From NCBI RefSeq assembly GCF_014196425.1, contig NZ_JACIDR010000002.1, positions 248,001-312,000 on the forward strand: DNA of 64,000 nucleotides, given 5' to 3'. Made by a program: the position numbers and the translations under genes. This document shows positions 1-41,208 of the stretch, piece after piece (the stretch's first letter is position 1; each line of letters begins with the position of its first letter). The notes beneath the pieces are model-generated. The model was not told the DNA's origin and made no database searches. It saw only the letters and a program-made list of their open reading frames with translations. This DNA is from Hansschlegelia beijingensis (GTDB lineage Bacteria > Pseudomonadota > Alphaproteobacteria > Rhizobiales > Methylopilaceae).

Positions 1-134
1 GCATCCTGATGCGCTCGAAGGGCATCGACGAAGAGCAGGCCTACGCCCTGCTGCGCAAGGTCGCGATGAACGAGAAGAAGAAGATCTCCGAGATCGCGCA
101 ATCTGTGGTCACCGCAGCGGAGCTTCTGGGATGA
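1..134 (+). CDS. nasT: NasT-type ANTAR antiterminator, C-terminal end (5' end outside window)
   Basis: Reading from base 3, the first 44 codons end in a TGA at 132-134. The visible protein (ILMRSKGIDEEQAYALLRKV, then AMNEKKKISEIAQ) is the end of an ANTAR RNA-binding domain, with the typical 'RSKGIDEEQAYxLLRKxAM' helix. ANTAR proteins bind paired hexaloop hairpins in leader RNA and block intrinsic termination. The stop overlaps the start of the next gene, a NasS-like nitrate sensor, as ATGA. That partner, and the attenuator-like leader downstream at 1397-1508, identify it as NasT rather than another ANTAR regulator. The receiver-like N-terminus lies upstream of the window and was not seen. Confidence 0.85.
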   Translation, partial: ILMRSKGIDEEQAYALLRKVAMNEKKKISEIAQSVVTAAELLG

Positions 135-1228
135 GCGCGGACCGCCTGAAGATCGGCTTCATCCCGCTGGTCGACGCCGCCGCGCCGATCGTCGCCGCGA
201 CATGCGGATTCGCCGCCGATGAGGGCCTGGAGATCGAGCTCGTCCGCGAGGTCTCCTGGGCGAACATCCGAGACCGGCTGACCTTCGGTCATTTCGACGC
301 CGCGCATCTTCTGGCGCCGCTCGCCATCTCGACCTCGCTCGGGCTGGGCGGCATCCGGGCGTCGCTGGCCGCCCCGGTGGCGCTCGGCCTGAACGGCAAC
401 GCCATCACCCTGACGCCGCACCTCCATGAGGAGCTGCTCGCCAATCTCGCGCCGCGCGCGAACCCGCGCGACCCGGCGGCCACCGGCGCCGCCTTCGCGG
501 CCGTCGTGCGGGCGCGCCGCCGGCGCGGCGACGAGCGGCCGACGCTCGGCATGACCTTTCCGTTCTCGACCCACAACTACCAGCTCCGCCTCTGGCTCGC
601 CGCGGCCGGCCTCGATCCGGAGGACGACGTCCGGCTCGCGGTGGTCCCGCCGCCCTACATGGTCGACGCGCTCAGGAGCGGCCATGTCGAGGGGTTTTGC
701 GTGGGCGCCCCGTGGAACTCGGTCGCGGTCGATCTCGGCATCGGCCGCATCCTGCATCTCGGGGTCGATCTCGTGCGGCGCTGCCCCGAGAAGGTGCTGG
801 CCGTCAGGTCGGCCTGGCTCGACGAGGACGCGGAGCGGACGGCGCGGCTGGTCCGCGCCTGCGTCCGCGCCGGCGAATGGCTGGACGAGCCGGGCAACCA
901 TGCCGAGGCCGCCCGGCTGCTCGCCGCGCCCCACATGCTCGACGTGCCGGAGCCGCTGATCCGCCGCGCGCTCGATGGTCGCCTTCCGACGGGCCCGGCC
1001 GGGGCGGAGCGCGAGGAGCCGGATTACCTCATCTTCGCGCGCGGCGGCGCCATGCGGCCCGACCTCCGCCACGCCGGTTGGCTCTACGGCGAGATGACCC
1101 GCTGGAGCCAGGCGCCCGAGGGGCAGGCGGGCGACGCGGAAGCCGTCTACCGCCCCGACCTCTATGACGCAGCCATGGGCGCCGCCGCCCCTGACGTTTC
1201 CGATCCGCTGGGCCTGTTCACCGGCTGA
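131..1228 (+). CDS. nasS: NasS-type cytoplasmic nitrate/nitrite sensor
   Basis: A 365-residue protein of the NrtA/CmpA/SsuA-like periplasmic-binding fold, but with no signal peptide: it begins MSADRLKIGFIPLVDAAAP, directly with the first strand of the fold. Lack of export and tight linkage to nasT (ATGA overlap at 131-134) match NasS, the cytosolic sensor that holds NasT inactive until nitrate or nitrite binds. It resembles the exported NrtA encoded just downstream (shared 'GFIxLxDAxP', 'MTFPxxTHxxxxRxWLAAxG', 'VPPxxMVxxxxxGxxxxFCVxxPWN'), so the sensor and the transporter-binding protein look like paralogues within one locus. The order nasT-nasS before the structural genes follows the arrangement known from other alphaproteobacterial nas clusters. 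Confidence 0.87.
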   Translation: MSADRLKIGFIPLVDAAAPIVAATCGFAADEGLEIELVREVSWANIRDRLTFGHFDAAHLLAPLAISTSLGLGGIRASLAAPVALGLNGNAITLTPHLHEELLANLAPRANPRDPAATGAAFAAVVRARRRRGDERPTLGMTFPFSTHNYQLRLWLAAAGLDPEDDVRLAVVPPPYMVDALRSGHVEGFCVGAPWNSVAVDLGIGRILHLGVDLVRRCPEKVLAVRSAWLDEDAERTARLVRACVRAGEWLDEPGNHAEAARLLAAPHMLDVPEPLIRRALDGRLPTGPAGAEREEPDYLIFARGGAMRPDLRHAGWLYGEMTRWSQAPEGQAGDAEAVYRPDLYDAAMGAAAPDVSDPLGLFTG

Positions 1229-1250
1229 GCTCGGCGCCCTCCGGGGCATC

Positions 1251-1265
1251 GCACAATTTTCGCGC
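1251..1265 (+). promoter_or_regulatory. possible NtrC-type enhancer site
   Basis: GCAC-N7-GCGC at 1251-1265 differs by one base from the GCAC-N7-GTGC core of NtrC sites. It lies about 110-120 bp upstream of the -24 element at 1374, a normal enhancer distance. Only one weak match is seen, so this is a suggestion supported mainly by context. Confidence 0.3.
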
Positions 1266-1371
1266 AGCGAACGCGCAGGCCTGCCGCGCCGACAGGCGTC
1301 AGCGCGGCGACCGCTGATTTCCTTTGCGCGCAAAACGCCTCTGATCCTCGTTCCCACGCCGGTCCGAGCGG

Positions 1372-1388
1372 TTGGCACGCGGCTTGAA
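1372..1388 (+). promoter_or_regulatory. sigma-54 (-24/-12) promoter for the nrt-nir-nas operon
   Basis: TTGGCACG-CGGC-TTGAA at 1372-1388 fits the sigma-54 consensus TTGGCACG-N4-TTGCW with a single mismatch: GA instead of GC at the -12 position. The -24 GG is at 1374-1375 and the -12 element at 1386-1387. Initiation about 12 bases further on (near 1398) would start the RNA just at the first hairpin of the leader. Nitrogen genes are commonly driven by NtrC and RpoN, and rpoN itself is at 39685-41208. Confidence 0.7.
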
Positions 1389-1396
1389 TGAATAGT

Positions 1397-1450
1397 CGCG
1401 CAGGTTCGCGTCGCCGCTGACGCCTTGGACCTCTCCGCCCAACGATGGGC
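1397..1450 (+). promoter_or_regulatory. candidate NasT (ANTAR) RNA target: hexaloop hairpins in the nrtA leader
   Basis: ANTAR proteins recognise two small hairpins with six-base loops that have A at loop position 1 and G at position 4. Here GCCC(1437-1440)-AACGAT-GGGC(1447-1450) is an exact A1/G4 hexaloop. Upstream, CGCG(1397-1400)-CAGGTT-CGCG(1407-1410) and GCGTC(1408-1412)-GCCGCT-GACGC(1419-1423) are two mutually exclusive hexaloop hairpins with G at position 4 but not A at position 1; either could be the first hairpin. They sit between the sigma-54 promoter and an intrinsic terminator, downstream of nasTS, which is what a NasT target should look like. Confidence 0.6.
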
Positions 1451-1460
1451 CGCCAGCGAC

Positions 1461-1508
1461 GCCGCTGAACGACTGCGCCAACGCGCACCTCGTCAGCGGC
1501 TTTTTTTT
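1461..1508 (+). terminator. intrinsic terminator (attenuator) in the nrtA leader
   Basis: GCCGCTGA (1461-1468) pairs with TCAGCGGC (1493-1500), with an inner TGCG/CGCA stem at 1474-1477 and 1484-1487, and is followed at once by eight T residues (1501-1508). It stands 66 bases before the nrtA start, so unless it is bypassed it would stop transcription of the whole operon. This is the expected site of NasT antitermination. Confidence 0.8.
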
Positions 1509-1573
1509 GTTCTCCGCCCCTCGGGGCGATCCGCCAGAGCCGGCGCGCGCGCGCCTTCACGGAGCCGACCACG

Positions 1574-2884
1574 ATGACCGACCACGTGAAGACCCTCCTG
1601 ACGAGCGGCGCGAGCCGCCGCTCCGTGCTGCGCGCCGGGGCTGGCGCGGCCGCCACGCTGCTGGCCGCCCGCGCCCTGCTGCCCTCCGGCGCCTACGCCC
1701 AGACCGCGGGACCGGAGACGCCCAAGGCGAAGCTCGGCTTCATCGCGCTGACGGACGCGGGACCGCTGTTCGTCGCCAAGGAAAAGGGGCTGTTCGACAA
1801 GTACGGCATGACCGAGGTGGAGGTCGCCAAGCAGTCCTCCTGGGGCACCACGCGCGACAACATCGTGCTCGGCTCGGCCGGCGGCGGCATCGACGGCGCG
1901 CACATCCTGACCCCGATGCCGTACCTCATCACCACCGGGGCGATGACCCAGAACAACCGGCCGACGGAGATGATGATCCTCGGCCGGCTGAACGTCGCCG
2001 GCCAGTGCATCTCGGTCGGCCAGGAATATGCGGATTTGAAGCTCGGCCTCGACACCAGGCCGTTCAAGACTGCGCTCGAGAAGAAGAAGGCCTCCGGCAA
2101 GGACGTCAAAGCCGCGATGACCTTCCCGGGCGGCACCCATGATCTCTGGATCCGCTACTGGCTCGCGGCCGGCGGCGTCGATCCCAACAAGGACATCCAG
2201 ACCATCGTCGTCCCGCCCGCCCAGATGGTGGCGAACATGAAGGTCGGGACGATGGACTGCTTCTGCGTCTGCGAGCCGTGGAACGAGCAGCTCAAGAACC
2301 AGAAGATCGGCTACACGGCGCTCACCACCGGCGAGCTCTGGGACAAGCATCCCGAGAAGGCGTTCGCGCTGCGCGCCGACTATGTCGAGAAGAACCCGAA
2401 GGCCGCCAAGGCTCTGCTGATGGCCGTCATGGAGGCCCAGCAATGGTGCGAGAAGATGGAGAACAAGGAGGAGCTCGCCGCCATCTGCGCCAAGCGCAAC
2501 TGGATCGGCGCTCCGATCTCCGACACCGTGGCGCGCATGAAGGGCACGTTCGACTACGGCGCCGGCAAGCCGGTGCTCGAGAACAGCCCGTTCATGATGC
2601 ACTACTGGGCGGACAACGCCGGCTATCCTTACAAGAGCCATGACCTCTGGTTCATCACCGAGGACATGCGCTGGGGCTACCTGCCCGAAAACACCGACGC
2701 CAAGGCGCTGATCGACAAGGTCAACCGCGAAGACCTCTGGCGCGAGGCCGCCAAGGAGCTCGGCGTGACCGACCTCCCGGCCTCGACCTCGCGCGGCGTC
2801 GAGAAGTTCTTCGACGGCAAGGTCTTCGATCCCGAGAACCCGGGCGAATACCTCGCGAGCCTCGACATCAAGCGCATGGTCTGA
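1574..2884 (+). CDS. nrtA: nitrate ABC transporter substrate-binding protein, Tat-exported
   Basis: A 436-residue NrtA/NasF-like periplasmic nitrate-binding protein. The N-terminus carries a twin-arginine signal (SRRSVLR, residues 14-20), a hydrophobic stretch and a likely cleavage site after AYA at residues 40-42, so export is probably through Tat in folded form. The mature part shows the family blocks GFIALTDAGPLFVAKEKG and MTFPGGTHDLWIRYWLAAGG. The ATG at 1574 is preceded by GGAG at 1561-1564. It is the first gene after the leader attenuator and is followed within 41 bp by the permease gene. It takes nitrate (and perhaps nitrite) to NrtB. Confidence 0.9.
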   Translation: MTDHVKTLLTSGASRRSVLRAGAGAAATLLAARALLPSGAYAQTAGPETPKAKLGFIALTDAGPLFVAKEKGLFDKYGMTEVEVAKQSSWGTTRDNIVLGSAGGGIDGAHILTPMPYLITTGAMTQNNRPTEMMILGRLNVAGQCISVGQEYADLKLGLDTRPFKTALEKKKASGKDVKAAMTFPGGTHDLWIRYWLAAGGVDPNKDIQTIVVPPAQMVANMKVGTMDCFCVCEPWNEQLKNQKIGYTALTTGELWDKHPEKAFALRADYVEKNPKAAKALLMAVMEAQQWCEKMENKEELAAICAKRNWIGAPISDTVARMKGTFDYGAGKPVLENSPFMMHYWADNAGYPYKSHDLWFITEDMRWGYLPENTDAKALIDKVNREDLWREAAKELGVTDLPASTSRGVEKFFDGKVFDPENPGEYLASLDIKRMV

Positions 2885-2925
2885 GGCGGCCGCCCGCTTC
2901 GCCGCGCCCTCCCCGGAGACATGCG

Positions 2926-3834
2926 ATGACACAGATTGCCGCCGCGACGTCGAACGTGACGCCGCTCAAGACGCCGACCTCCGCGGCAGGGACGGTCGTG
3001 AGCCTGCCGGCGCCGGCCGCGCGGCCGGTGTTCGGCCCGCGCGCCCGGACACGGCTGACGGAGCTCGCTCGGGCGATCATTCCTCCGCTTCTGACGATCG
3101 CCGCGCTGCTGCTGCTCTGGGAGCTGCTGTGCTCCTCGCCGACATCGTCGCTGCCCGCGCCGTCGCGCGTCGTCAGCGACACCTGGGAGCTGATCGCCCA
3201 CCCGTTCTACGACAATGGCGGCAACGACAAAGGCCTCGGCTGGCAGCTCTACGTCAGCCTGAAGCGCGTCGCGCTCGGCTATGCGCTGGCGGCGGTCGCC
3301 GGGGTTGCGCTCGGCGCGCTTGTGGGCGGCTCGGTCTGGGCGATGCGCGGCCTCGATCCGGTCTTCCAGGTGCTGCGGACGATCCCGCCGCTCGCCTGGC
3401 TGCCGCTCTCGCTCGCCGCGTTCCGGGACGGCGAGCCGTCCGCGATCTTCGTGATCTTCATCACCGCGATCTGGCCGATCATCATCAACACGGCGGTCGG
3501 CATCCGGAACATTCCGCAGGACTACAAGAACGTCGCGCAGGTCCTGCGGCTGAACCCTCTCGAATACTTCATCAAGATCATGCTGCCGGCGGCCGCTCCG
3601 TACATCTTCACCGGGCTCAGGATCGGCATCGGCCTGTCGTGGCTCGCGATCGTCGCGGCAGAAATGCTGATCGGCGGCGTGGGCATCGGCTTCTTCATCT
3701 GGGACGCGTGGAACTCGTCGCGGATCAGCGACATCATCCTCGCGCTCGTCTACGTCGGCGCGGTCGGCTTCATCCTCGATCGCATCGTCGCCCTGATCGC
3801 CGTCGCGGTCACCCGCGGCACGGCCAACGCGTGA
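2926..3834 (+). CDS. nrtB: nitrate ABC transporter permease
   Basis: A 302-residue inner-membrane permease of the NrtB/SsuC/TauC type. The first ~45 residues are a cytoplasmic, Pro/Ala-rich tail; then come about six membrane segments, starting near PLLTIAALLLLWELL. The cytoplasmic coupling loop with the EAA-like region is visible around VAQVLRLNPLEYFIKIMLPAAAP. It lies between the binding protein and the ATPase gene (10 bp before the latter), so it forms the channel of the nitrate importer. Confidence 0.9.
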   Translation: MTQIAAATSNVTPLKTPTSAAGTVVSLPAPAARPVFGPRARTRLTELARAIIPPLLTIAALLLLWELLCSSPTSSLPAPSRVVSDTWELIAHPFYDNGGNDKGLGWQLYVSLKRVALGYALAAVAGVALGALVGGSVWAMRGLDPVFQVLRTIPPLAWLPLSLAAFRDGEPSAIFVIFITAIWPIIINTAVGIRNIPQDYKNVAQVLRLNPLEYFIKIMLPAAAPYIFTGLRIGIGLSWLAIVAAEMLIGGVGIGFFIWDAWNSSRISDIILALVYVGAVGFILDRIVALIAVAVTRGTANA

Positions 3835-3844
3835 GGACGAGCCC

Positions 3845-4642
3845 ATGGCCAAGTCATTCCTGACCATCGAACACGTCGACAAGAGCTTCACCCGCGGGGC
3901 CGTCACCAACGAGGTGCTGAAGAACATCTCGCTCGAGGTGAACGAAAGCGAGTTCATCTCGATCATCGGTCATTCGGGGTGCGGAAAGTCGACGCTGCTC
4001 AACATCGTCGCCGGCCTGACCCAGGCCACGACCGGCGTCGTCTTCCTCGAAGGCCAGGTGGTCGACGAGCCCGGCCCGGATCGCGCGGTCGTATTCCAGA
4101 ACCACAGTCTTCTGCCGTGGCTGACCTGCTACGAGAACGTTGCGCTCGCGGTCGACAAGGTTTTCGGCAAGACGAAGTCCAAGGCCGAGCGCCACGACTG
4201 GACGATGCACAAGCTCAAGCTCGTCCACATGGAGCACGCCAAGGACCGGCGGCCGTCCGAAATCTCGGGCGGCATGAAGCAGCGCATCGGGATCGCCCGC
4301 GCGCTCGCGATGCAGCCGAAGGTCCTCCTGCTGGACGAGCCGTTCGGCGCGCTCGACGCGCTCACCCGCACCCATCTGCAGGACCAGGTCATGCAGATCC
4401 AGGCGGAGCTCAGGAACACCGTGCTGATGATCACGCACGATGTCGACGAGGCGGTGCTGCTGTCGGACCGCATCGTGATGATGACGAACGGACCCTCGGC
4501 CCGCATCGGCGACGTTCTGGAGGTGCCGCTCGACCGCCCGCGCAACCGGCTCGAACTGGTGTCGGACCGGGGCTACATCGCGGCGCGGGCCGCCGTGCTC
4601 AAGTTCCTCTACGAACGCCACCGCTTCGTCGAGGCGGCGTGA
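3845..4642 (+). CDS. nrtC: nitrate ABC transporter ATP-binding protein
   Basis: A 265-residue ABC ATPase with all motifs: Walker A GHSGCGKST, Q-loop at FQNHSLLPW, signature ISGGMKQR, Walker B VLLLDEPFGALDA and switch histidine in MITHDVDEA. It is a single-domain ATPase without the extra NrtA-like domain that cyanobacterial NrtC carries, so it corresponds in size to NrtD; the symbol nrtC follows its operon position. It energises nitrate uptake through NrtB. The next gene begins within 6 bp, or overlaps if GTG is the start. Confidence 0.9.
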   Translation: MAKSFLTIEHVDKSFTRGAVTNEVLKNISLEVNESEFISIIGHSGCGKSTLLNIVAGLTQATTGVVFLEGQVVDEPGPDRAVVFQNHSLLPWLTCYENVALAVDKVFGKTKSKAERHDWTMHKLKLVHMEHAKDRRPSEISGGMKQRIGIARALAMQPKVLLLDEPFGALDALTRTHLQDQVMQIQAELRNTVLMITHDVDEAVLLSDRIVMMTNGPSARIGDVLEVPLDRPRNRLELVSDRGYIAARAAVLKFLYERHRFVEAA

Positions 4643-4647
4643 GCGAG

Positions 4648-5862
4648 ATGCAGCCCGAACGCCTCGTCATCGTCGGCGCCGGCATGGCGAGCCTCAAACT
4701 CCTCGAGGAGCTCGCCGCCGCCGCTCCCCGCCGCTACGACGTCACCGTCGTGGGGGCGGAGCCGACGCCGGCCTACAACCGGGTTCTGCTGTCCTCCCTG
4801 CTCGCCGGCGAAGCGAGCGACGAGGACCTGCGCCTCCGGGGCCGTGACTGGTACGCCGCGCATGGGTTTCGCCTGCTGACCGGCGCTCCCGCGCAGGCGA
4901 TCGACCGTGCAGGGAAGCGGCTGATCCTGCGCGGCGGCCGGGCGCTCGCCTTCGACAAGCTTGTCCTGGCGACCGGATCCGAAGCGATCCGCCTGCCTTT
5001 GCCTGGCGCGGATCTGCCCCAGACGCTGACGTTCCGCGACCTCTACGACGCGACGCGGCTGCGCGCCCTCGCGGCTCCGGGACGGCGGGCCCTGGTGATC
5101 GGGGGCGGCCTGCTCGGTCTCGAGGCCGCCTATGGGCTCGTCCGGCGCGGCTGCTCCGTCACGGTGGTCCATCTCGCCGACCGGCTGATGGAGCGCCAGC
5201 TCGACGAGCGCGGCGCGGCGACGCTCAGGCGGACGCTGGAGGCCAAGGGCGTCGGCTTCGCCCTGTCCGCGTCGAGCGTCGCCATAACGGGCGACGCGCA
5301 GGTGACGGGTCTCGAACTCGCGACTGGCGAGAGGCTTCCGGCCGATCTGGTGGTGATGGCGTGCGGAGTCCGGGCGAACGCCGGCCTCGCGAAGGCGGCC
5401 GGACTGCGCGTCAATCGCGGGATCACGGTGGATGATCGCCTCGCGACCTCCGATCCGGACATCTTCGCGCTCGGCGAATGCGCGGAGCACCGCGGCGACG
5501 TCTACGGCCTCGTGGCTCCGGCCTACGAGCAGGCGAGAACGCTCGCCCGCCGCCTCGCGGGCGACGACAGCGCGACCTACGCCGGCAGCGTGCTCTCCAC
5601 CAATCTCAAGGTCTCGGGCGTCGGCGTGTTCTCCGCCGGCGCGATCGAGCCGGAAGACGGCGACGAGACCATGGTGCTCGCCGATCCCGGGCACGGGCAC
5701 TATCGCAAGCTGATCGTCCGCGATGACCGGCTCAAGGGAGCGATCCTGGTCGGCGAGACCTCGGACGCCCTCTGGTACCTCGACCTGATCACGACCGCGA
5801 CGCCGCTCGGCCCGCTGCGCGAAGACCTCGCCTTCGGCCGCGGCTTCGCGATGGCGGCGTGA
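4648..5862 (+). CDS. FAD-dependent NAD(P)H oxidoreductase (NasC/NirB N-terminal type)
   Basis: A 404-residue protein with two dinucleotide-binding motifs: FAD at the N-terminus (VIVGAGMASLKLLEEL) and NAD(P)H in the middle (ALVIGGGLLGLEAAYGL). The ATG at 4648 follows the nrtC stop by 5 bp; an in-frame GTG at 4639 overlapping that stop is an alternative. It matches the reductase half of NADH-nitrite reductase NirB and of NasC, the electron-transfer subunit of Klebsiella nitrate reductase, but has no siroheme domain and no C-terminal [2Fe-2S] domain. NasA encoded at 9327 carries the [2Fe-2S] BFD-like domain instead, so the most likely role is to pass electrons from NAD(P)H to NasA. A role with the nitrite reductase cannot be excluded. 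Confidence 0.75.
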   Translation: MQPERLVIVGAGMASLKLLEELAAAAPRRYDVTVVGAEPTPAYNRVLLSSLLAGEASDEDLRLRGRDWYAAHGFRLLTGAPAQAIDRAGKRLILRGGRALAFDKLVLATGSEAIRLPLPGADLPQTLTFRDLYDATRLRALAAPGRRALVIGGGLLGLEAAYGLVRRGCSVTVVHLADRLMERQLDERGAATLRRTLEAKGVGFALSASSVAITGDAQVTGLELATGERLPADLVVMACGVRANAGLAKAAGLRVNRGITVDDRLATSDPDIFALGECAEHRGDVYGLVAPAYEQARTLARRLAGDDSATYAGSVLSTNLKVSGVGVFSAGAIEPEDGDETMVLADPGHGHYRKLIVRDDRLKGAILVGETSDALWYLDLITTATPLGPLREDLAFGRGFAMAA

Positions 5863-5870
5863 GGGAGACG

Positions 5871-7667
5871 ATGAGCCAGGACTTCTCACCCGACCAGAAG
5901 CGCTATCTCGAGGGCTTCGTCTCGGGCGTGCAGGCGGTGCGGGGTTCGCGCGGACTGCCCGGCTTCGGCGGAGCGCCCGCCTTCCAGACGCAGCCCGCGA
6001 CCAATGCGCCGGCTGCGCCGTCCGGCCCGGACGCCGCGCATCTCGAGGCGATGGCGCGCTTCGAGCGCGAGGGCCGGAAGCTCAGCCCGCAGGAGATCGC
6101 CAAGCGCGAGGAGCACCCGTTCGACGCCTACGCCCGGTTCAAGACCATGGCGAAGGAGAACAGGTTCGCGAAACAGCTCGACGACTTCCGCATCCGCTTT
6201 CACGGCCTGTTCTATGTGGGTCCGACGCAGGACGCGTATATGTGCCGGCTAAGGATCCACAACGGCATCCTCCGCGCCTGGCAGTTCCGCGGGGTCGCCG
6301 ATCTCGCGCGGCAGTATGGCGGCGGCTACAGCCACGTCACGACACGCGCCAATCTGCAGGTCCGGGAGATCGGCGCGGCCGACGGCATCTCCTTCGTCGA
6401 AGGCCTCGTCGACCTCGGCCTGACCTCGAAGGGCGCCGGCGCGGACAACATCCGCAACGTCACCGGCACGCCGACGGCGGGAATCGACCCGCAGGAGCTG
6501 GTCGACACCCGGCCCTACGCGAAGGAGTGGCATCACCACATCCTCAACGACCGCTCGCTCTATGGCCTGCCGCGCAAGTTCAACGTCGCGTTCGACGGGG
6601 CCGGCCGGATCGCGGCGCTCGAAGACACCAACGACATCGGCTTCCAGGCCGTCGAGCTGCGCGACGGCTTCGGCGTCGCGCCGGGGGCGTGGTGGCGGCT
6701 GGCGCTCGGCGGCATCACCGGACACAAGGATTTCGCGCGCGACACCGGCGTGATCGTCCCGCTCGATCAGGCCGTGAGGGTCGCCGACGCGATCGTGCGG
6801 GTCTTCATCCGCGCCGGCGACCGCACCGAGCGAACCAGATCGCGCCTGAAGTATCTGCTCGACGCATGGGGCTTCGAGAAATTCCTCGAAGCCGTCGAAG
6901 CCGAGCTCGGCGCCGAACTCACCCGCGCTCCCGCCGGCGCCGTGGCCCCGCGACCGGAAAGCGACCGGATGGCGCATATCGGCGTCCACCCGCAGCGGCA
7001 GGCCGGCCACAACTGGGTGGGCGTCGCGCTGCCGCTCGGGCGCCTGACCTGCGAGCAGATGCGCGCGCTCGCGGCCATCTCAGAGGAGCTCGGCGACGGC
7101 GACATACGCCTTACGGTCTGGCAGAATCTGCTGATCTCGGGCGTGCGCGACGCCTGTGTGGCGGAGGTCGAGCGCCGCGTCGCGGAGATTGGACTGGCGA
7201 CCTCGGCCTCCAACGTCCGCGCGGGCCTCGTGGCCTGCACCGGCAGCCGCGGCTGCAAGTTCTCCGCCGCCGACACCAAGGGCTACGCGGACCAGATCGC
7301 GACCCATATCGACGCCGCCGGACTGGTCGTCGACACGCCCATCAACATCCACGCGACGGGCTGCCACAACTCGTGCGCGCAGCACTACATCGGCGACATC
7401 GGCCTGATCGGGGCGCGGGTCCCGGTCGGCGAGGACGACACCGTCGAGGGCTTCCACCTGCTTGTCGGCGGCGGCTTCGGCGGCGACGCCAGCATCGCGC
7501 GCGAGCTCGTTCGCGACGTGAAGGGCGAGGACTGCGCGGCCGTCGTCGAGAAGATGCTGCGCGGCTATCTGGCCCGCCGCTCGGGACCGGAAGAGACCTT
7601 CGCGGCCTTCTCGCGCCGCCACGCGATCGACGAGCTGAAAGCCATCTTCGAACTCGAGGGAGCCTGA
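5871..7667 (+). CDS. nirA: assimilatory nitrite reductase, siroheme/[4Fe-4S] (NirA type)
   Basis: A 598-residue nitrite/sulfite reductase hemoprotein. The siroheme-[4Fe-4S] ligands are visible as C456-x5-C462 (ACTGSRGCKF) and C498-x3-C502 (TGCHNSCAQ). Two ferredoxin-like repeats are recognisable, with NLQVREIG in the first half and HPQRQAGHNW opening the second. It reduces nitrite to ammonium in six electron steps. The nitrate context favours nitrite over sulfite. ATG 5871 follows GAGGGAG; a GTG at 5859 overlapping the upstream stop is possible. Odd: the N-terminus (FSPDQKRYLEGFVSG, residues 5-19) resembles the start of the flavoprotein encoded next (FSPEQRAWLNGFFAG) and the N-terminus of CysJ, suggesting a shared docking element. 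Confidence 0.88.
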   Translation: MSQDFSPDQKRYLEGFVSGVQAVRGSRGLPGFGGAPAFQTQPATNAPAAPSGPDAAHLEAMARFEREGRKLSPQEIAKREEHPFDAYARFKTMAKENRFAKQLDDFRIRFHGLFYVGPTQDAYMCRLRIHNGILRAWQFRGVADLARQYGGGYSHVTTRANLQVREIGAADGISFVEGLVDLGLTSKGAGADNIRNVTGTPTAGIDPQELVDTRPYAKEWHHHILNDRSLYGLPRKFNVAFDGAGRIAALEDTNDIGFQAVELRDGFGVAPGAWWRLALGGITGHKDFARDTGVIVPLDQAVRVADAIVRVFIRAGDRTERTRSRLKYLLDAWGFEKFLEAVEAELGAELTRAPAGAVAPRPESDRMAHIGVHPQRQAGHNWVGVALPLGRLTCEQMRALAAISEELGDGDIRLTVWQNLLISGVRDACVAEVERRVAEIGLATSASNVRAGLVACTGSRGCKFSAADTKGYADQIATHIDAAGLVVDTPINIHATGCHNSCAQHYIGDIGLIGARVPVGEDDTVEGFHLLVGGGFGGDASIARELVRDVKGEDCAAVVEKMLRGYLARRSGPEETFAAFSRRHAIDELKAIFELEGA

Positions 7668-39684: not shown

Positions 39685-41208
39685 CTAGACCGATTCGGCC
39701 GCCGCCTTCTTCTCACGCCGCCTTTGGACCGAGGACGGGATGCGCAGGCTTTCGCGATATTTCGCGACGGTGCGGCGGGCGATCTCGACCCCGCTGTCGT
39801 GGAGCCGTTTCACGATGGTGTCGTCGGACAGCACGTCGTCCGGACTCTCCGCGTCGATCATGAGCTTGATGCGGTGCCGGACGGCTTCCGCCGAATGCGC
39901 CTCGCCGCCTTCCGCGTTCGCGATCGCGGCCGTGAAGAAGTACTTGAGCTCGAAAACGCCCCGCGGCGTCGCGATGTACTTGTTCGCGGTGACGCGCGAG
40001 ACCGTCGACTCGTGCATGCCGATGGCGTCGGCGATCATCCTGAGATTGAGCGGCCGCAGATGCGCCACGCCGCGGGTCAGGAAGCCGTCCTGCTGCCGCA
40101 CGATCTCGGTCGCGACCTTGAGGATGGTGCGGGCGCGCTGCTCGAGGCTGCGGGTCAGCCAGTTCGCGGTCTGAAGGCACTCGGTCAGGAAGGTTTTCTC
40201 GACCTCGTTCTTCGCGATCTTCACGACCTTCGCGTAGTAGGACTGGTTCACCAGCACGCGCGGCAGCGAGTCCGCCACCAGCTCGACGATCCAGGAGCCG
40301 TCGGGGGCGGCGCGGACGATCACGTCCGGCACGACCGGCTGGACGATCTCGGCGCCGAACATGTGCCCGGGCTTCGGGTCGAGCCGGCGGATCTCGGCCA
40401 GCATGTCCAGAAGATCCTCGTCGTCGACGCCGCACAGCCGGCGGAGCGCGGCGTAATCGCGCCGGGCGGCGAGTTCGAGATTCTCCACCAGCGCCTGCAT
40501 CGCCGGGTCGAAGCGGTCTCGCTCGCGGAGCTGGAGGGCCAGGCACTCCTGCAGCGAGCGCGCGCCGACTCCGGTCGGCTCGAAGGTCTGGATGACCGCC
40601 AGCACCCGCTCCACCGCCGGGAGCGGCGCGGCCAGCCGCTCCGCGACGGTCTCCAGAGGCTCCCGCAGATAGCCCGCAGGGTCCACCAGATCGATCAGAT
40701 GCGCGCCGATCAGCCGCTCGGTCGGATCCGTGACCGTGAGGGCGAGCTGGCGCTCCAGATGGTCGGCCAGCGTGGTCCGCTCGGCCACATAGGCCTCGAG
40801 GTCGGCGCCTTCGCCCGAATAGGCGCCGCCGGCGCCGAGGCCGGACCAATCCCCGGGCTCGGGCGTGGCCGGAAGCGTCGGCCGCTCCGCGGACTGAGGC
40901 GCGTCATCCGGAAAGACGTTTCCGAAGTCGGTGTCGAGCCGGGCCTCGATGGAGGAGCGGGATTCGGGTTCGACCGCGTCGCCCCACGACTCGTCGGCCT
41001 CGCGCTCGGCGGAGCTCGCCCCGGACGCCTCCGGCGCGGCCTGCTGGCCATCGTGGAGCTCCAGAAGGGGGTTCTGCTCGAGCTCGCGATCCACATAGGC
41101 GGCGAGGTCGAGGCTCGAGAGCTGCAACAGCTTGATCGCCTGCATCAGCTGCGGCGTCATCACCAGCGACTGGGATTGGCGCAGCTGAAGCTTCGGGGTC
41201 AGAGCCAT
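39685..41208 (-). CDS. rpoN: RNA polymerase sigma-54 factor
   Basis: 507 residues. Region I is glutamine- and leucine-rich (LQLRQSQSLVMTPQLMQAIKLLQLSS), an acidic region II follows (about 50-130), then the core-binding and helix-turn-helix regions (HESTVSRVTANKYIATPRGVFELKYFF, cited here in part) and the C-terminal RpoN box ARRTVAKYRESLRIPSS that reads the -24 element. It drives nitrogen and other enhancer-dependent promoters, plausibly including the one at 1372-1388 in this window. Confidence 0.96.
   Translation of the reverse strand: MALTPKLQLRQSQSLVMTPQLMQAIKLLQLSSLDLAAYVDRELEQNPLLELHDGQQAAPEASGASSAEREADESWGDAVEPESRSSIEARLDTDFGNVFPDDAPQSAERPTLPATPEPGDWSGLGAGGAYSGEGADLEAYVAERTTLADHLERQLALTVTDPTERLIGAHLIDLVDPAGYLREPLETVAERLAAPLPAVERVLAVIQTFEPTGVGARSLQECLALQLRERDRFDPAMQALVENLELAARRDYAALRRLCGVDDEDLLDMLAEIRRLDPKPGHMFGAEIVQPVVPDVIVRAAPDGSWIVELVADSLPRVLVNQSYYAKVVKIAKNEVEKTFLTECLQTANWLTRSLEQRARTILKVATEIVRQQDGFLTRGVAHLRPLNLRMIADAIGMHESTVSRVTANKYIATPRGVFELKYFFTAAIANAEGGEAHSAEAVRHRIKLMIDAESPDDVLSDDTIVKRLHDSGVEIARRTVAKYRESLRIPSSVQRRREKKAAAESV

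Follow-up and report, generated by a model that had tools for sequence, protein, structure and literature searches.

In the window, a 64,000-nt stretch of Hansschlegelia beijingensis DNA, the operon that begins with nrtA is very probably served by a sigma-54 promoter whose transcript would open directly with a NasT-responsive antitermination leader. Computation bears out the anatomy of this leader, the mutual exclusion of its hairpin P3 and its terminator, and its conservation with a degree of covariation, and it finds just one strong match in the genome; the coordinates of the features are collected in Table 1.

Table 1 Features of the nrtA leader, its neighbouring genes and rpoN in the window.
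Feature	Position	Strand	Basis or detail
nasT, 3' end	1..134	+	full gene starts outside the window
nasS, NrtA-like nitrate/nitrite sensor, NasT partner	131..1228	+	PF13379, 240.8 bits
Candidate upstream activator site CGCACAATTTTCGCGCA, NtrC-like but degenerate	1250..1266	+	2 mismatches to TGCACN7GTGCA
-24/-12 sigma-54-type promoter, TTGGCACGCGGCTTGAAT	1372..1389	+	sequence read and conservation
Predicted transcription start	1398	+	inferred from -24/-12 position
P1 hairpin, hexaloop 1413-1418 GCCGCU (G1, G4)	1402..1432	+	inner stem 1408-1412/1419-1423, outer stem 1402-1407/1427-1432
P2 hairpin GCCC-AACGAT-GGGC, hexaloop 1441-1446 AACGAU (A1, G4)	1437..1450	+	sequence and conserved pairing
P3, putative antiterminator hairpin CAGC-GACGCC-GCUG, hexaloop 1458-1463 (G1, G4)	1454..1467	+	overlaps terminator 5' arm
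Intrinsic terminator, stem 1461-1500, then U8 1501-1508	1461..1508	+	-25.4 kcal/mol
nrtA, first gene of the operon	1574..2884	+	PF13379, 349.5 bits
rpoN (sigma-54), activator-interacting domain	41056..41193	-	PF00309, 70.8 bits; G000:C2:289056-289193

The sequence-only reading that preceded this analysis had placed nasT and nasS directly upstream of the leader, and both genes are indeed found there, intact. The whole nasT gene encodes 201 aa with receiver-like and ANTAR regions (intact ORF at L001 1081-1686); the ANTAR match (PF03861, 76.5 bits, 6.3e-21) spans the start of the window, and the Response_reg match (3.8e-6) falls under the curated cut-off. The best relative of NasS among the matches listed is from Hansschlegelia plantiphila (73% identity), followed by further Hansschlegelia and Methylopila records. 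The next genes after nrtA encode, in order, a permease of the ntrB type (329.2 bits), an ATPase of the ntrCD type (348.8 bits) and a member of the NirA family (956 bits). Which ANTAR protein would act on the terminator? The genome encodes two more ANTAR proteins of about 200 aa (G000:C3:115648 and G000:C1:260930; L002 and L003), and control by one of these instead of NasT is scarcely credible given that nasT and nasS adjoin the leader, that 12 of 18 loci checked also have the C-terminus of NasT ahead of NasS, and that the NasT of Paracoccus binds the corresponding leader RNA (PMC3795266).

Three hexaloop hairpins and a competing terminator

Alignment of nine leaders resolved three hexaloop hairpins, P1, P2 and P3, ahead of the terminator. 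The canonical A1/G4 loop and the intrinsic terminator with eight T that had been read from the letters are both borne out, the former being P2, which carries A1 as well as G4; P1 and P3 carry G, not A, at position 1. It is P3, and not the P2 loop singled out in the first reading, that excludes the terminator. The 3' half of P3 is the terminator 5' arm, such that both structures use 1461-1467 and are therefore mutually exclusive, and in this folding model P3 is most likely the antiterminator hairpin. The hairpin CGCG-CAGGTT-CGCG was considered as an initial candidate for the 5' hexaloop and rejected, having C at position 1, being unlisted in other leaders and excluding P1. A terminator scan left out the 1461-1508 element, probably owing to the loop limit of the scan.

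Folding of the nascent chain predicts how the competition would unfold. When the RNA ends at 1467, P1, P2 and P3 each form with probability 1.0. As the chain is extended, the probability of P3 is 0.92 at 1475, 0.06 at 1485, 0.94 at 1495 and 0.02 at 1500; the dip at 1485, where P1 also falls to 0.06, is a predicted transient rearrangement, and once the RNA reaches 1500 the terminator takes over with probability 0.98 in a predicted flip from P3. Since P3 is worth -5.2 kcal/mol and the terminator -25.4 kcal/mol, P3 would need protein to persist. The fold of 1398-1510 lies 2.7 sd below dinucleotide shuffles (z -2.73), and 1398-1462 alone is as stable as its shuffles (z 0.10), so the excess stability of the leader belongs to the terminator. 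Elsewhere in the window, counting both strands, three R1/G4 hexaloop hairpins occur at two other places.

The promoter and its activator

A -24/-12 element upstream of the hexaloops had also been proposed, and it holds up. TTGGCACGCGGCTTGAAT carries TTGGCAC with its GG at 1374-1375 and, further on, a TTG whose G is at 1386; ten bases run to the -12 doublet, and this geometry predicts an RNA start near 1398. The core motif is weak when taken alone: TGGCACN5TTG has 8 matches genome-wide versus 6 for the reversed control, which is background level, and the longer TTGGCACN5TTGNAT has 1 match versus 0 in the control. The case for the promoter therefore rests on conservation at a fixed place, and TGGYAYN5TTG was found within 700 nt after nasS in 70 of 80 NasS loci, this set being the best 80 of 255 relatives. 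The motif is absent from that interval in the other ten (L012, L026, L042, L053, L060, L064, L068, L075, L078 and L079), and in nine of these, all but L012, no promoter block was found even within 3000 nt.

The sigma-54 consensus carries a GC doublet at -12. The doublet in the window is GA (TTGAA) instead, and across the 70 promoters from the best 80 of 255 relatives the -12 element reads TTGAA in 53, TTGTA in 16 and TTGAC in 1, with TTGC in none; as judged from these NasS-linked sequences, the element departs consistently from the consensus. At this position CTGCA stands in another leader, L108, and TTGCA in a further one, L112.

The activator-interacting domain of RpoN (PF00309) has a single match in the genome, and this match lies in the window. 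The genome also encodes an NtrC (720.9 bits) in which GAFTGA is kept, unlike the NtrC of Caulobacter and Rhodobacterales (PMC10274813). None of the sites that a search with TGCACN7GTGCA turned up in the window is convincing for NtrC; the best NtrC-like one, CGCACAATTTTCGCGCA, is centred about 140 nt ahead of the predicted start and carries 2 mismatches among 10 fixed bases. At other loci the best site is a perfect match in L006, has 1 mismatch in L009, L010, L032 and L069, and has 2-4 in all remaining loci; its distance varies, and in L006 and L009 it lies about 140 nt upstream. On this sequence evidence NtrC is a plausible activator of the nrtA promoter.

An alternative hypothesis is that the leader is as described here and that the sigma-54 activator is a different enhancer-binding protein. 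We regard this as unlikely, though it draws on several observations: the degeneracy of CGCACAATTTTCGCGCA, the presence of other NtrC-type matches in the genome, and a rare palindrome, GTGCA-S-TGCACAW, that occurs in 7 of 13 genomes of the genus (0-4 matches each), precedes the nas promoter in several of them, and at its other place examined, in three genomes, sits between genes apparently unrelated to nitrogen (read by eye). Against it stand the TGCACN7GTGCA sites about 140 nt upstream, perfect in L006 and with one mismatch in L009, and the Pseudomonas case, in which NtrC is the activator (PMC12830290). NtrC stays the preferred activator. The palindrome forms an overlapping pair at the nas promoter in G252, and a further overlapping pair in G215, G193 and G251 lies, by eye, between NDH-2-like and thioredoxin-like genes; because its other place adjoins these genes, GTGCASTGCACAW was not accepted as an NtrC site.

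Conservation of the leader in relatives

The order of promoter, hexaloops and terminator put forward from the sequence was upheld by its conservation in Methylopilaceae-like bacteria, Afipia, Hyphomicrobiaceae and further genomes of the order. Across the nine aligned leaders, every cell of the P1 inner stem is paired (100%) and one of its pairs has changed on both sides, and for the P1 outer stem the paired share is 76.5%; the P2 and P3 stems are invariant, and the inner helix of the terminator has two pairs changed on both sides. When compared with shuffles, the antiterminator structure fares weakly (57 of 500 for cells paired, 77 of 500 for covariation score) and the terminator structure better (4 of 500 and 8 of 500, respectively).

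A wider set of 29 distinct leaders was collected by the P3 stem only, and P2 was taken as whichever hexaloop 14-22 nt ahead of P3 had the longest stem. The P3 loop has G4 in 29 of 29, with A1 in 24 and G1 in 5; in the P2 loop, G4 occurs in 27 leaders and A1 in 23. Covariation is mute on the P3 stem, which served as the anchor for the 29 leaders and is invariant in the nine. The four inner pairs of P2 form in 112 of 116 cells versus 34-67% when slid, and 28 of 29 leaders show a spacing of 16-18 between the P2 and P3 loops within the allowed range of 14-22, both figures arising partly by construction because P2 was picked as the longest stem in a fixed range; the exception, L073, has a misassigned P2 at a spacing of 20. 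The P2 stem differs between families and still pairs, the third pair being CG in 19, TA in 5, TG in 3 and unpaired in 2. L112 is counted among the 29, although it has no NasS or NrtA match and its promoter fits a looser pattern only, because P2, P3 and a terminator are present.

P1 has a narrower distribution. Among 14 distinct close-relative leaders (the window, L004-L012, L104, L107, L108 and L116), a loop with A or G at position 1 and G4 is present in 13, with the loop sequence unconstrained in the search, the exception being L108, and in 13 of the 14 the hexaloop starts at +14 to +18 from the predicted start. Among more distant leaders with a stem of at least 4, such a loop was found in 0 of 13; the distant leader L113 has an A1/G4 loop on a 3-bp stem. 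These counts took only the upstream hexaloop with the longest stem, and the promoter pattern skipped L066, L083 and L117. As far as these sequences indicate, the third hexaloop at the RNA 5' end appears to be a new and lineage-specific element.

A covariance search with a model of P1-P3 (model R1) gave a single strong match in the genome, 84.9 bits at this leader; the next best reached 22.1 bits (E 0.6), with 150 of 3060 candidates scored. In 249 genomes of the order, under stricter filters, matches with E of at most 0.01 were found in 16, nine of them belonging to the genus and seven outside it. Four of these seven lie between nasS and nrtA and L112 does not, and L111 and L114, which have neither a NasS or NrtA match nor a promoter, were rejected as true leaders and are likely chance. 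Afipia and Bradyrhizobium sites score weakly with model R1, among chance matches (28 sources). Rfam 15 returned no family at gathering score for 1-4000, all matches being far below, and this does not amount to the failure of a defining feature.

Could the hairpin at 1461-1508 be a plain terminator of the nasTS operon, with the nrtA promoter downstream of it and the hexaloops there by chance? The hairpin does follow nasS, and transcription running on from nasTS would be stopped there as well. This reading is nevertheless highly improbable. Three non-overlapping R1/G4 hexaloop hairpins arose in 1 of 5000 leader shuffles, and in the best 80 of 255 relatives the promoter is accompanied by a P3-like CAGC-RNNGNN-GCTG hairpin in 70 of 70 promoter-bearing NasS loci, such that the two occur together in 70 of the 80. 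In L012, an ORF at 5105-6385 splits nasS from the block of promoter and leader, and the block still adjoins nrtA. Moreover, two genomes of the genus, at G193:C34 and G215:C1 (L116 and L117), carry the promoter and a three-hexaloop leader a second time past nrtB, at a distance from nasS, and a scan of 1-4000 for sigma-70-like promoters listed none.

In G193 the second copy lies between the NrtB and NirA matches; in G215 it has an ATPase ORF upstream of it and, downstream, an ORF that looks reductase-like by eye. In L112, a leader with P2, P3 and a terminator occupies 1402-1561 on the minus strand, with TGGCGCN5TTGCA, before an ORF of 380 aa that has no Pfam match and no NasS or NrtA match within 3 kb; it is possibly an extra ANTAR target.

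Proposed circuit, known systems and Bradyrhizobium-type leaders

We infer the start site, the role of NtrC, the binding of NasT and the response to nitrate, and the circuit would operate as follows. When nitrogen is limiting, RNA would be started at about 1398 by a sigma-54 activator, NtrC being the most likely one, and P1, P2 and P3 would fold in turn as the RNA emerges. When nitrate is absent, NasS would hold NasT, P3 would yield to the terminator and transcription would end before nrtA. When nitrate is present, NasT would be freed and would dock on the hexaloops, P2 and P3 being the widely conserved pair and P1 a lineage-specific extra; docked NasT would lock P3, the terminator 5' arm could not pair, and the polymerase would enter nrtA. 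Judged from the layout, switching on the nitrate-uptake genes appears to require both a shortage of nitrogen and the presence of nitrate.

Such a system is not new, as the two-layer circuit has already been described for Pseudomonas NalA and Klebsiella nasF. In Pseudomonas, the NalA leader has a sigma-54 promoter used with phosphorylated NtrC, and binding of NasT prevents its terminator from forming (PMC12830290, a review); as here, the sigma-54/NtrC-fed leader of NalA/nirBD terminates unless NasT binds, and nitrate or nitrite makes NasS release NasT. The downstream genes differ, and c-di-GMP control is reported for the NalA system. The nasA leader of Paracoccus denitrificans is likewise a non-coding leader with hairpins that has nasTS upstream, and there NasT binds the leader RNA and nitrate causes release (PMC3795266, PMC5424462); it has two hairpins, HI and HII, and PMC5424462 describes an NtrC site at nasT, with none identified in the leader. 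Klebsiella oxytoca nasF shares the combination of Ntr control and nitrate antitermination (PMC5424462), and its P1 and P2 hexaloops carry A1 and G4, with P2 overlapping the terminator (PMC3369936), but it uses the one-component NasR, not NasS-NasT, and has two hexaloops, not three. A dual A1/G4 hexaloop with the second hairpin within the terminator is an established arrangement (PMC3369931, PMC8934654, PMC3369936). In eutP and sibling leaders of Enterococcus faecalis, which respond to EutV, that second hairpin lies inside the terminator stem (PMC3369931, PMC8934654); these leaders differ in their ethanolamine signal and in a loop spacing of 24 nt (A29 to A53), compared with 17 for P2-P3 and 28 for P1-P2 here.

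Because the two-layer logic of nitrogen status followed by nitrate had already been described, the chief contribution of the window is a clear and conserved case from Methylopilaceae-like bacteria in which P1-P3 and the terminator are placed to the base. No description of a three-hexaloop leader was found in the open-access literature searched, a result that falls short of proving novelty. Why more than one hexaloop is needed, given that a dimer occupies a single hexaloop at a time, is still debated for ANTAR proteins (PMC8934654), and three-site leaders beside two-site relatives allow a direct test of it.

The Bradyrhizobium-type leaders, 52 in number (within L013-L082), are recognized by CAGC-AACGAR-GCTG and keep both the promoter and the hexaloop. 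Unlike the leader in the window, they show no U-tract: a U-run of at least 5 between hexaloop and start codon was found in 0 of 52. Their Shine-Dalgarno region is GGAGCTTCG in 49 of 52, complementary to the hexaloop CGAAGCT (or to CGAGGCT with a G-U pair), and CGAAGCT of the hexaloop and 3' stem complements AGCTTCG beside the Shine-Dalgarno in these 49 of 52 versus 0 of 138 other GGAG starts at the same loci. As the loci are closely related, this pairing is a lead and not a result. In Bradyrhizobium diazoefficiens, the nirA leader lies downstream of nasST and is reported to have a NasT-type hairpin, and nirA is lower in a nasT mutant (PMC6759348).

We tentatively raise the possibility, somewhat doubtful at present, that one front end of sigma-54 promoter and NasT hexaloop feeds two outputs in the order, an intrinsic terminator with a three-site docking array in the lineage of the window and, in Bradyrhizobium, a ribosome site that NasT would free as a translational activator. 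If confirmed, the Bradyrhizobium variant would mean that NasT acts on translation as well as on antitermination. Predicted folds of these leaders are mixed, ranging from fully hexaloop to fully loop-with-Shine-Dalgarno, with several showing neither, and in many of them the CGAAGCT bases can, by eye, also pair with a nearer GAAGC. Of the three leaders with a variant Shine-Dalgarno, L048 stays paired and L027 and L037 do not. In a record titled Streptomyces sp. AcH 505 (L044), nasS and the leader resemble those of Afipia records, which likely reflects contamination or mislabelling.
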